A stretch of 64,000 bases of DNA from Burkholderiales bacterium Ga0077543 (GTDB lineage: Bacteria; Pseudomonadota; Gammaproteobacteria; Burkholderiales; Burkholderiaceae_C). Positions within the stretch are counted from its first letter, which is position 1, and each line of letters opens with the position of its first letter. Below the pieces are notes generated by a model that saw nothing but the letters and a program-made list of their open reading frames with translations, searched no databases and was not told the origin of the DNA. The stretch spans positions 1 to 64,000 of the forward strand of contig LNET01000062.1 in NCBI GenBank assembly GCA_001464055.1, read 5' to 3'. Of this stretch, positions 61,029 to 64,000 are shown one piece after another. The position numbers and the translations under genes were made by a program.

Positions 61029-62149
61029 GGCAGAAGAGTGTCTCTTGGTTTTTCATGAAAAAAGCCGCCCGAAGGCGGCTTTGGCGCTGGCGTGCGGCAT
61101 GCAAAGCATGCCGCCAAGCTGTGGCGCATGCCGAACTCGTAACCCGTGGACTTGAAGCCGCGGGCGATCTGAGCCGCGGTCGGGGCCACGCCCGAGCCGC
61201 TGGCGGTGAAGCCGGAGCCGGCTTCGTTGTCCACCTGGCTGAACGTGGTGTACAGCGCGGTGCGCTTGGACAGGTCGTACTGGTAGCCCACGCCGATCTG
61301 GGTGGCCTTGCGGAAGTCGCTGGTCTTGCCGTAGGTGAGCTTGATCGAGCTCGCGCCCATCGGAATGACGCCGGCGATCGTGAAGTTCTTCAGCTCGGAG
61401 TTGCTGTACTTGTAGCTGTGGTACTGGCCCAGCAGACGCATGAAGCCCAGGTTGTAGGAGCCACCGAAGTTGTAGGCCGTCACGTCGTCGATCATCGTGC
61501 CGGTCTTCTCGGTGATGCCATAGGCAAACGCGACGTTGATCGGGCCGGCTGCGTAGCCAATGCGACCACCGATGTACTTGTTGCCCGTGCGGCCTTCGCC
61601 AGCCGCCACGTTGAACTGGCCGTAGATGCCGCCCAGGCCGCCCGGCAGGTGGTAGCCGATGGAGTTGTCGGCGCGAACCAGGGTCGTCGCCAGGCCACCC
61701 GGGATGGTGATGATGTTGTTCTGCGCAGCAACGCCGACGGTGTTGTACGGGTCGAACAGGGTGTGCGTCCAGAAGGTGGGGGTGTAGTCACGGCCCAGGC
61801 GCAGCTCGCCCCATTTGCCCGCCAGGCTCACGGTCGAACGGCGGGTCCAGGTCAGGCCGCCGGGGGTTGCGCCCGGTGCCACGTTGGCGGTGCCGCCACC
61901 GGTGTCGGGTGCAATGGCAGCCTCCAGCCAGAAGCTTGCACGCAGACCGCCACCCAAGTCTTCCACGGCGCGCACGATGAACCGGTTCGAAGCGGCGCCT
62001 TCAGGGCTGAGCGTACGGACTTCGCCGCCTGGGTTCTTCACGCTGCGTGCAGCCAGATCGACGATACCGCCGATGTTCACCGACGATTGCGCCGAAGCCA
62101 CACCGGCAACCGTCATCATGGCGGCCATCGCGAGCAGTGATCTTTTCAT
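61025..62149 (-). CDS. Trimeric Gram-negative porin 2, frame extended past the expected C-terminus
   Basis: Outer-membrane porin of the betaproteobacterial type: signal peptide MKRSLLAMAAMMTVAGVASA, SSVNIGGIVDLAARSVKNPG, the EDLGGGLRASFWLEAAI block, GELRLGRDYTPTFWTHTLFD and YQYDLSKRTALYTTFSQVD. A normal copy would end YEFGMRHSF. Here the frame reads GMRHSL and continues for about 30 residues (AACFACRTPAPKPPSGGFFH and on) through a hairpin and an intrinsic terminator, stopping 4 bases into the next gene. Either the stop was lost or the C-terminus evolved. The ATG at 62149 has a TAGGAGA ribosome site. Confidence 0.88.
   Translation of the reverse strand: MKRSLLAMAAMMTVAGVASAQSSVNIGGIVDLAARSVKNPGGEVRTLSPEGAASNRFIVRAVEDLGGGLRASFWLEAAIAPDTGGGTANVAPGATPGGLTWTRRSTVSLAGKWGELRLGRDYTPTFWTHTLFDPYNTVGVAAQNNIITIPGGLATTLVRADNSIGYHLPGGLGGIYGQFNVAAGEGRTGNKYIGGRIGYAAGPINVAFAYGITEKTGTMIDDVTAYNFGGSYNLGFMRLLGQYHSYKYSNSELKNFTIAGVIPMGASSIKLTYGKTSDFRKATQIGVGYQYDLSKRTALYTTFSQVDNEAGSGFTASGSGVAPTAAQIARGFKSTGYEFGMRHSLAACFACRTPAPKPPSGGFFHEKPRDTLLP
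61058..61082 (-). terminator. Intrinsic terminator lying inside the extended porin frame
   Basis: On the minus strand AAAGCCGCC-TTCG-GGCGGCTTT, a perfect 9-bp stem with a UUCG loop, is followed by a T-run that continues for three more bases. It is the strongest terminator-like structure in the window. It lies within codons of the elongated porin frame. Confidence 0.85.
61094..61114. other. Perfect 9-bp-arm hairpin at the expected porin stop
   Basis: GCGGCATGC (61094-61102), AAA, GCATGCCGC (61106-61114). The arms are exact inverted copies. The structure occupies the codons immediately after GMRHS, where the porin stop codon would be expected, and may mark the lesion that removed it. Confidence 0.6.
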
Positions 62150-62385
62150 TGCGTTTATCTCCTAGGTTGAAAACGAGGTCCCGGTCGCAAAAGACATTGG
62201 CATGACAAATCAGCCGGGCCGACCTCCGTTTGGAAGTTCGATGAATTGCACCAGACCCGTCAGGATGTACACCTAGGCATAATCCTGGATGCGACAGAAT
62301 TGTTGCCATTGAACAACGGTTTCCAGGTGCCTTCCGCCCCAAACTGGTGCGTCCCCCCACTGCGTGTGAGTTTGTCCCTGTCTTC

Positions 62386-63012
62386 ATGAGCTTCACCGAT
62401 CGGCTGTTGATCAGTCTCGACAACGCCTTGCGCACGCTGGCCGGTCCGGCCCATGCAGGCCGTCCGAATCCTGCGGCCTCGCACGGCGATGCCGAACTGG
62501 CTCCCCAGGACCGTGCGCTGTCGGGTGCGCTGATGCGCGTCAACCATGTAGGCGAAGTCTGTGCCCAGGCGCTTTATCAGGCCCAGGCGCTGACCGCCCG
62601 CAGCGAAGACCTGCGGCGGCAGATGCAGGTCGCGGCCAGGGAAGAGACCGACCATCTGGCCTGGACGCAGCAGCGCCTGGACGAACTGGGTGCGCGGGCC
62701 AGCCTGCTCAACCCGCTGTGGTATGCCGGTTCGTTTGCCATCGGTGTGCTGGCCGGCAGCCTGGGCGACCGCGCCAGCCTGGGCTTCGTCGTCGAGACCG
62801 AGCGTCAGGTCGAGCAGCATCTCGCAGGTCACCTGGGTCGCCTGCCCGCGGCAGACCAGCGCTCTCTGGCCATCGTCGCGGTGATGCAGGACGACGAACG
62901 CCGCCATGCAGAGGAGGCGCTCGACGCCGGCGCTGCCGAACTGCCCCCGCCGGTACGCTGGCTGATGAAGGGCGCGGCACGGGTCATGACCGAGACCGCT
63001 CAGCGCATCTGA
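62386..63012 (+). CDS. coq7: 2-nonaprenyl-3-methyl-6-methoxy-1,4-benzoquinol hydroxylase (Coq7)
   Basis: Di-iron hydroxylase that makes the last hydroxylation in ubiquinone synthesis. Ferritin-like iron ligands appear in [15 protein letters not shown], the [18 protein letters not shown] block and [15 protein letters not shown]. The start [20 protein letters not shown] gives 208 residues, the usual betaproteobacterial length. Divergent from porin 2 across 236 bases, convergent with the OsmC-like gene 10 bases downstream. The hydroxylation needs oxygen, consistent with aerobic respiration. Confidence 0.95.
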
Positions 63013-63022
63013 CTGCCTCCCG

Positions 63023-63445
63023 CTAGGCTTCGACGAGGTCGAAGCCGGTGGTGATCTCGGCCGACTTCGCCAGCATGATGCTGGCGGAGCAGTATTTCTC
63101 GTGCGACATCGCGATGGCACGCTCCACTGCGGAGGCCGGCAGTCCGCGGCCGGTGACGGTGAATTGCATGTGGATGCGCGTGAACACCTTCGGGTCCTTG
63201 GGTGCGCGCTCGGCCTGGATCTTGACCGTGCAGCCCCGCACGTCATGGCGGCCGCGCTGCAGGATCAGGACCACGTCGTAGGCCGTGCAACCGCCGGTGC
63301 CGGCCAGCACGGTTTCCATCGGACGCGGGGCCAGGTTGCGGCCACCGCCATCGGGCGCGCCGTCCATCGTGATGAAGTGGCCGCTGCCAGTTTCGGCGAT
63401 GAAGCCCATGCCGGTGCCCGGCAGCCAGTTGATGGTGCATTCCAT
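63023..63445 (-). CDS. OsmC-family protein
   Basis: A 140-residue OsmC/Ohr-fold protein resembling the YhfA branch. The two redox cysteines of the family are present, Cys53 in VLAGTGGCTAYDVVLILQRG and Cys119 in SHEKYCSASIMLAKSAEITT, so thiol peroxidase-type chemistry is possible. The ATG at 63445 (MECTINWLPGTGMGF) fits the family; an upstream extension of 35 residues has no similarity. It is convergent with coq7 and faces away from the candidate small RNA locus. Confidence 0.9.
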   Translation of the reverse strand: MECTINWLPGTGMGFIAETGSGHFITMDGAPDGGGRNLAPRPMETVLAGTGGCTAYDVVLILQRGRHDVRGCTVKIQAERAPKDPKVFTRIHMQFTVTGRGLPASAVERAIAMSHEKYCSASIMLAKSAEITTGFDLVEA

Positions 63446-63530
63446 GGTGAATTGGCCCTGTTGTGGCGCAAGTGCGCGCTGTGGCCTGGATTCTCGCGTG
63501 CTCGAGGGCAGAACTAGTTCGTCTTGCATA

Positions 63531-63565
63531 TTGCACTGCAGCAAAAGCATCGTTAGACTGCGTCG
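63531..63565 (+). promoter_or_regulatory. Putative promoter of the small RNA
   Basis: TTGCAC (63531-63536) and TAGACT (63554-63559) are separated by exactly 17 bases, a sigma-70-like arrangement with a good -10 and weak -35. A start near 63566 would place transcription just before the first hairpin of the RNA. Confidence 0.5.
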
Positions 63566-63655
63566 CGTGGGGTTTCTTCGGAGCCCCGCCCTTTGTCTCC
63601 TCCACCTCCTCCAATGGTGGATTCAGCCCGGTGCCGCAAGGTACCGGGCTTTTTT
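63566..63655 (+). ncRNA. Candidate small RNA with anti-Shine-Dalgarno motif
   Basis: A predicted RNA of about 90 bases. Hairpin 1 pairs GGGG (63569-63572) with CCCC (63584-63587) around a small loop. A pyrimidine-rich stretch then includes CTCCTCCACCTCCTCC, containing CACCTCCT (63603-63610), identical to the anti-Shine-Dalgarno octamer of 16S rRNA. A short CCACC/GGTGG stem presents UCCUCC in its loop, and the RNA ends in the terminator at 63625-63655. It could be a trans-acting RNA targeting ribosome-binding sites, or an ilvA leader/attenuator. It does not match any RNA family I can name with confidence. Confidence 0.5.
63625..63655 (+). terminator. Strong intrinsic terminator upstream of ilvA
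   Basis: Arms AGCCCGGTGCC (63625-63635) and GGTACCGGGCT (63640-63650) pair with one mismatch around a GCAA loop and are followed by T6. The ilvA start is 68 bases further on. A TATGAT at 63676-63681 may be the -10 of a separate ilvA promoter. Confidence 0.85.
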
Positions 63656-63722
63656 CTTGCCCGGGTCTGCCGGCCTATGATCGGCGCCCCCCGTCACCCG
63701 AAGATCCCCGGAGATTCCACCG

Positions 63723-64000
63723 ATGCCCGCAGGCGCCTCTCGCCCCACCACGCCGACGGTCCCGCCGGCCCCGACACAGGTCGCGTCGCGCGAACTCCGC
63801 GCCCAGGGCAAACGCATCGCGGCGAGCTACCTGCAACGAATCCTCAATGCGCGCGTTTATGACGTCGCCCGCGAAACTGCGCTCGACCCGGCGCGCAGCC
63901 TGTCCCGCCGCATCGGCAACCAGGTGTTGCTCAAGCGTGAAGACCAGCAACCGGTGTTCAGCTTCAAACTGCGCGGGGCTTACAACAAGATGGCACGGCT
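63723..64000 (+). CDS. ilvA: Threonine ammonia-lyase (threonine deaminase), N-terminal part
   Basis: First 92 residues of a PLP enzyme that converts threonine to 2-oxobutyrate for isoleucine synthesis; the rest lies past the window edge. The PLP lysine is K82 in [16 protein letters not shown], preceded by [14 protein letters not shown], a canonical start of the catalytic domain. The first ~20 residues form a Pro/Ala/Thr-rich extension. The ATG at 63723 is the nearest good start. The upstream terminator and small RNA candidate may regulate it. Confidence 0.9.

Follow-up and report, generated by a model that had tools for sequence, protein, structure and literature searches.

A betaproteobacterial double-hairpin small RNA with a PhaR-type operator over its predicted promoter, and a likely sibling in phasin 3' untranslated regions

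The small RNAs (sRNAs) of Rfam family RF02278 (Betaproteobacteria toxic sRNA) have been described in Burkholderia, Bordetella and Herbaspirillum; members were reportedly found as toxic inserts, and their toxicity was reported in E. coli. In B. cenocepacia NcS27 and its siblings form double hairpins, NcS27 being 92 nt long and processed; its overexpression is reported to slow growth and its silencing to speed growth, and the predicted duplexes cover the ribosome-binding site (RBS) (PMC5688073). The same 2017 study reported an elevated NcS27 level in biofilm (9.7-fold), in stationary phase (2.4), upon starvation (3.9) and in glucose medium (4.3), mentioned an unnamed upstream motif common to three of the four siblings, and regarded what governs the accumulation of these B. 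cenocepacia sRNAs, NcS27 among them, as still open (PMC5688073). A review presents NcS27 as regulating the shutdown of metabolism upon deprivation of nutrients, growth being affected on some substrates only (PMC10987360). S17 of B. pertussis is reported to be shortened by processing (through RNase E according to the discussion of that paper), to bind Hfq and to repress a sigma54 activator directly; BP2158 is given as a directly repressed target, and many of the candidate targets are transporters (PMC11722255). In the present work a copy of this RNA is described which is located near the end of a 64,000 nt stretch of Burkholderiales bacterium Ga0077543 DNA (assembly GCA_001464055.1, contig LNET01000062.1, positions 1 to 64,000 of the forward strand; the window, to which coordinates refer) and whose predicted promoter overlaps a PhaR-type operator.

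The forward-strand segment 63594-63657 matched the RF02278 covariance model with 66.4 bits (gathering cut-off 50, E 2.3e-12) in the double-hairpin form, likely the processed form of the RNA, and the architecture of the family, i.e. a CU-rich 5' segment, a hairpin with a CU loop and a terminator hairpin, was found in it. The RNA is a local copy of the betaproteobacterial double-hairpin sRNA, an already-known family. It was the only copy above the cut-off in this genome, the next best matches reaching 27.2 and 25.5 bits. An earlier note, made from the sequence alone, had proposed an independent sRNA acting on RBSs and related to the alphaproteobacterial cuckoo-type RNAs. The data indeed support an independent sRNA that ends in a terminator and is conserved also where ilvA is missing, and the RBS action is expected from the characterised relatives, but the cuckoo-type kinship found no support: the window remained far below the cut-offs of the SorX (RF02784, 13.1 bits vs 46.6) and MmgR/suhB (RF00519, 13.8 bits vs 41) models, and no cuckoo-type family was among the Rfam families scored. 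The NmsRb model (RF02877) gave 37 bits, its cut-off being 52.

Of 120 same-family genomes, 104 had an RF02278 match at E<=1e-3 and 82 had one over the cut-off; in the order-level sample of 250 genomes the corresponding numbers were 113 at E<=1e-6 and 94 over the cut-off. An exact 19-mer search of named genomes gave matches in at least 119 contigs; among the 80 matches listed two came from unrelated phyla (Oscillospiraceae, Parabacteroides), which we estimate to be about chance level. Three genomes of family f7 (G125, G173 and G281) carried 8, 7 and 6 RF02278 matches, respectively, vs 1-5 in the other genomes listed.

The promoter, hairpin, CU-rich segment, octamer and terminator named in the earlier note were all present where it had placed them. 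The predicted promoter consists of a TTGCAC -35 box (63531-63536) and a TAGACT -10 box (63554-63559) separated by a spacer of 17 nt. The -35 box is a poor match to the consensus and no consensus promoter was matched on either strand, so the support for this weak promoter comes from conservation, the position of the -35 box relative to the -10 box being fixed in the relatives. The predicted primary sRNA of about 92 nt would extend from 63566 to 63657, its start having been taken solely from the promoter spacing. The segment 63563-63657 folded with -48.3 kcal/mol (z -5.85), and none of 200 shuffled sequences was equally stable. The fold comprises the 5' hairpin SL1 (63567-63589), the seed UUGUCUCC (site 1, 63593-63600; unpaired probability at least 0.97), the hairpin SL2 (63601-63621; stem UCCACC/GGUGGA, loop UCCUCCAAU at 63607-63615) and an intrinsic terminator with its T-run (63625-63655; stem 63625-63650, T6 at 63650-63655). 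The CU-rich segment CTCCTCCACCTCCTCC occupies 63597-63612.

The block UUGUCUCCUCCA (63593-63604), mostly unpaired, is conserved in the relatives: its DNA form TTGTCTCCTCCA was found in 88 of 89 distinct same-family sequences, a value that is partly built in since it was an RF02278 match that had qualified the sequences for the set. Of the 89, 63 had a second CTCC and 77 a second CCTC behind the seed. Changes on both sides of a pair were observed in the same sequences at two pairs of SL2 (in 10 and 3 sequences) and at nine pairs of the terminator, both counted without a shuffle control. In case of SL1 the 36 nt before the core beat 95% of the shuffles in 27 of 90 same-family rows and the sequence varies, which makes SL1 weak as a conserved structure. 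Of the three stems whose covariation the earlier note had suggested examining, SL2 and the terminator thus covary.

The palindrome recognised by PhaR in Ralstonia eutropha is reported as YTKNTGCRNYGCANMAR (PMC12849132). A PhaR-type operator, GCATATTGCACTGCAGCAAAA, occupies 63526-63546 of the window, with its 17-mer core at 63528-63544 and its centre at 63536; it overlaps the -35 box, and the -10 box starts 18 nt from its centre. The core differs from YTKNTGCRNYGCANMAR at two positions, where up to three were allowed for membership, and relatives such as L010 have no mismatch. The overlap suggests that the promoter is under the control of PhaR. A PhaR gene (PF07879, on contig C109) and a phaP with operators are also present in this genome: upstream of its single phasin_2 gene (C96:83565-83861) operators with 0, 1 and 2 mismatches were found. 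Since its own phaP promoter carries the same operator type, the sRNA and the phaP promoters share an element in this genome. The pattern TTGCRNYGCAVCA occurred at 33 places genome-wide vs 9 for the reversed control, and among the 30 contexts listed three looked promoter-like by eye, the sRNA, phaP and one further place.

The operator was followed in 179 genomes (one best match per genome, from 198 rows, with one short-upstream row dropped), PhaR presence being defined as a PF07879 match. These counts cover the family-sample matches of at least 50 bits plus three weaker ones and the order-sample matches listed, with one contig-edge match set aside. Of the 34 order genomes having the RNA without PhaR 28 were scored (omitted: G163, G221, G236, G285, G298, G353); the PhaR-positive order genomes G154, G215, G246, G265 and G362 were likewise omitted. 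With up to two mismatches, YTKNTGCRNYGCANMAR was found in the 140 nt upstream of the RNA in 114 of 149 PhaR-positive genomes, in 2 of 30 PhaR-negative genomes and in 111 of 3525 control windows. Letter-shuffled palindromes were found on average in 1.9% and at best in 39.6% of the PhaR-positive genomes, vs 76.5% for the real one.

A matrix was also built, solely from the 59 operators that precede 30 phasin genes (at least two in the case of 28 genes), and its threshold was set at the 99th percentile of 3201 control windows (passed by 1%). The operator of the window scored 22.1, a value reached by 0.03% of these controls. Upstream of the RNA a site above the threshold was found in 130 of 149 PhaR-positive genomes (74/81 in the same family, 56/68 elsewhere) and in 3 of the 30 PhaR-negative ones, namely in 1 of 28 order genomes and in both of two same-family genomes that are incomplete drafts and gave no PhaR match. 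By family, the majority was above the threshold in 17 of 20 PhaR-positive and in 1 of 10 PhaR-negative families, this one consisting of the two drafts. Because the PhaR-negative genomes cluster in few clades, the comparison amounts to about ten independent family contrasts and not to thirty genomes. In 72 of the 75 same-family promoters with a recognisable -10 box (77 examined) the distance from the operator centre to the start of the -10 box was 17-19 nt, ties between candidate boxes having been settled towards 21 nt and not 18. In the PhaR-negative loci L276, L277, L282 and L291-L316 many of the promoters listed have an AT-rich AATATTAGATAATTCTAATA-like -10 region and not the operator, i.e. 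the same RNA under different control. In L275 (genome G173) the operator stands just 18 nt before the RNA core.

It is fairly probable in our judgement that this RF02278 sRNA is repressed by PhaR, is made upon storage of polyhydroxybutyrate (PHB) and blocks the RBSs of uptake and catabolic mRNAs. The RNA of about 92 nt would be transcribed from its own promoter and would probably be cut in the CU-rich linker, which would leave about 65 nt. The seed UUGUCUCC(UCC), aided by the UCCUCC loop, would then pair with the purine-rich RBSs of transporter and catabolic mRNAs and block their translation. Since the operator lies over the -35 box, PhaR should act as a repressor and would keep the RNA off in balanced growth. 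PhaR is reported to leave the DNA for nascent PHB granules (PMC12849132), and for this reason the RNA would be expected during PHB deposition: under carbon excess and nutrient limitation PhaR would be titrated by the granules, the RNA would be made, and it would put a brake on further carbon uptake. By analogy, the expected induction conditions fit those which raise NcS27.

Several observations weigh against this proposal. The operator of the window is two mismatches away from the 17-mer; 35 of the 149 PhaR-positive genomes have more than two mismatches by the 17-mer, and 19 are under the matrix threshold. Family f32 gave 0/3 by the 17-mer, though 3/3 by the matrix. G204 has PhaR without the operator, and G161 has an operator-like site without a PhaR match. 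In other families the site is often further from the RNA, therefore repression by overlap with the -35 box need not hold everywhere. The PhaR-negative genomes, grouped as they are in few clades, have a different promoter. For S17 an enhancement by BvgA is reported (PMC11722255), and the main text of that paper, like that of the 2017 NcS27 study (PMC5688073), makes no mention of PhaR, phasin or PHB. In the open-access literature searched, data on the binding of PhaR to an RF02278 promoter were not found. Finally, the phaP leaders have only ordinary Shine-Dalgarno (SD) complementarity, thus phasin is not a clear target.

Phasin as a conserved target of the seed was rejected: the longest exact complement of UGUCUCCUCC was 4-6 nt in 29 of 30 phaP leaders, and the 7 nt found in the phaP leader of this genome correspond to an ordinary SD. 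A search for targets in the window gave nothing convincing: of the three 8-mer sites that preceded a start codon, one was the antisense strand of the RNA itself.

The same sRNA could also be present with a palindrome that belongs to another regulator or is a constrained feature of the promoter, PhaR being inactive here. The TTGC of the operator core overlaps the -35 box and would be conserved anyway, and both the report of BvgA control over S17 (PMC11722255) and the 19 PhaR-positive genomes without a site above the matrix threshold fit this explanation. A bare -35 box, however, leaves unexplained the symmetric right half GCA(G/A)CAA and the match to the phaP operators of the same genomes, and the drop to 1/28 in PhaR-negative genomes that still carry the RNA also argues against it. 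We regard this explanation as unlikely, though it deserves serious attention.

The octamer CACCUCCU (63603-63610; DNA CACCTCCT), which had been highlighted in the earlier note, is taken by us to be identical with the anti-SD of 16S rRNA; a search of this draft genome for the 16S string GGATCACCTCCTTT gave no match. It was described there as partly displayed in a loop, and in the fold UCCU is indeed looped while its first four bases, CACC, are paired, the unpaired UUGUCUCC standing immediately 5' of it. By chance 1.69 copies of CACCTCCT are expected in the window, as are 0.92 copies of the 16-mer with up to three mismatches; the octamer alone thus proves nothing, and the significance of the RNA rests on the covariance-model match and on conservation. 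The octamer was found in 27 of the 89 same-family sequences, so that the conservation foreseen for this loop does not hold for the octamer itself, while the CU-rich segment around it is kept, as the second CCTC indicates. The octamer was rejected as the key element; the conserved feature is UUGUCUCCUCCA, not the CACCUCCU loop.

These data also bear on the idea of a general decoy, which would sequester the SD or compete with 16S rRNA and be toxic to all translation without being a metabolic regulator. Such a role could be read from the exact anti-SD octamer and from the toxicity of the family reported in E. coli, but an octamer so poorly conserved and half paired does not suit it, NcS27 is reported to affect growth on certain substrates and not on others (PMC10987360), and the entry into stationary phase is reported to be just modestly impaired (PMC11722255). 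We consider a decoy highly improbable.

The RNA is preceded by coq7 (62347-63012, forward strand; PF03232 and NF033656) and by an osmC family gene (63023-63445, reverse strand; PF02566), and is followed by ilvA (63723-64000, forward strand, continuing beyond the end of the window; PF00291, PF00585 and TIGR01124 above cut-off). This position, on the coq7 and osmC side, is conserved, as expected of the orthologue group of NcS27 and S17. The order coq7-osmC-RNA-ilvA was found in 68 of the 83 same-family genomes with enough flank; the others comprised 7 loci without a coq7 match, 3 without ilvA and 5 arranged otherwise. Among the named matches listed, a Rubrivivax metagenome-assembled genome (L095) was the closest, with identities of 81% for coq7, 88% for osmC and 91% for ilvA. 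Elsewhere in the window, both strands of 61046-61127 weakly matched Rfam families that contain hairpins, never above the cut-off; this segment is probably a terminator.

An ilvA leader or attenuator, ending early with occasional read-through, would be in keeping with the about 65 bases between the end of the RNA and the ATG of ilvA on the same strand and with the frequent RNA-ilvA order, but it has hardly any probability left and was rejected, because in all the loci with enough flank of Paraburkholderia (12/12, osmC being kept), Lautropia (3/3) and Pandoraea (4/4) the RNA is present although the fetched flank contains no ilvA, the strong terminator of the RNA covaries, and its relatives are trans-acting sRNAs. 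The earlier note had likewise favoured an independent RNA over an attenuator, and a transcript always continuing into ilvA, named there as a refutation, is contradicted by the same Paraburkholderia loci and by the terminator stem.

A related element was detected in the 3' untranslated region (3'UTR) of phaP. The phasin counts refer to 30 of 49 phasin matches from 40 genomes (among them loci L364-L392). In 24 of these 30 same-family loci a GTCTCC seed, which mostly reads GTTGTCTCCTCGG, was followed by a hairpin and a terminator (for example L382:2058-2132). The phaP of the present genome (L187) is among the six loci without the element and has a plain terminator at its end. In 21 aligned elements GTCTCCT was invariant and both hairpins had changes on both sides; from these 21 of the 24 elements, with three divergent ones omitted, the model R1 was built. 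Searching 250 genomes of the order with R1 gave 30 matches in 29 genomes. Seven of them, including the six best scores, stood 2-194 nt after a phasin frame, in genomes outside the training set; of the remaining 23, 14 coincided with RF02278 matches and 9 did not. At E<=0.1 the RF02278 model itself picked up six of the 30 phasin loci, none of which reached its cut-off. As judged from sequence, the phasin 3'UTR probably gives rise to a sibling sRNA that shares the GUCUCC seed; no report of a phasin 3'UTR element was found in the open-access literature searched. To the further proposal that the Burkholderiales possess a two-RNA PhaR arm, in which PhaR would govern the standalone RF02278 sRNA via the operator on its -35 box and, in many genomes, a sibling cut out of the 3'UTR of the PhaR-controlled phasin mRNA, the two sharing the seed UUGUCUCC, we give an even chance.

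Other RNAs of this kind were noticed. In the present genome a sub-threshold RF02278-like candidate (L003:1501-1561, minus strand; G000:C74:47260-47320) scored 27.2 bits with RF02278 and 27.5 bits with R1. In it the seed TGTCTCCTCC is combined with two hairpins and a T-run. Its start lies 69 nt beyond the stop codon of flhC (PF05280); no PhaR palindrome nearer than four mismatches was found in the 300 nt upstream. It may be another 3'UTR-borne relative, that of the flagellar master regulator flhC. The R1 matches L400, L410 and L411 of family f6 (genomes G124, G215 and G172) have two CTCCTCC motifs flanking a stem and a strong terminator, with no phasin frame nearby, and represent perhaps another relative of these CU-rich sRNAs.

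The RNA is a fresh instance of a known family, while the PhaR link and the 3'UTR sibling appear to be new within the searchable literature. No paper joining NcS27 with PhaR or RF02278 with PHB was found in the open-access literature searched, and the 2025 paper on R. eutropha PhaR makes no mention of an sRNA. The role of riboregulation in the PHB synthesis of C. necator was described as undeciphered in a 2021 review. The PhaR-type operator suggests how an RNA family of open control is switched on. If this is true, the filling of the storage granules would induce RNAs that turn off uptake and catabolism, that is, a carbon-overflow brake read from a solid polymer, bioplastic metabolism would be joined to a widespread sRNA, and the arrangement would parallel the alphaproteobacterial PhaR-MmgR pair with an RNA of a different family. 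Both predictions, of the PhaR link and of the sibling, can be tested directly.

Among the described systems, NcS27 of B. cenocepacia and Hsnc59/63/86/107 of H. seropedicae resemble the RNA of the window in sequence and structure, CU-rich seed, two hairpins and terminator, and NcS27, as reported, also in its 92 nt with a removable 5' part; unlike here, where one copy is above the cut-off, B. cenocepacia has four. S17 of B. pertussis likewise adjoins coq7, has a primary-sigma promoter with a TTGCAT -35 box and a 17-nt spacer, is processed to 67 nt and has a seed region reported as conserved across the Betaproteobacteria; it differs in its long 5' part (190 nt primary RNA), in the reported BvgA control and in a glycosyltransferase gene as its other neighbour. 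The Neisseria RNAs NmsRA/NmsRB (NgncR_162/163, RF02877) share the CU-rich unpaired segments complementary to the RBS regions of metabolic mRNAs, but they are reported as tandem siblings under RelA control, and the window is under the cut-off of their model. In the phaP1 promoter of R. eutropha a PhaR palindrome is similarly situated beside or over the promoter; that promoter drives an mRNA and has several sites, whereas the sRNA promoter has one clear site. MmgR of Sinorhizobium meliloti (RF00519) is an sRNA reported to bear on PHB and to have a promoter under repression by PhaR/AniA; it lowers phasin protein levels, directly or not, while no special pairing with phaP was found here. Since MmgR belongs to another RNA family, the likeness is one of wiring and not of shown descent.
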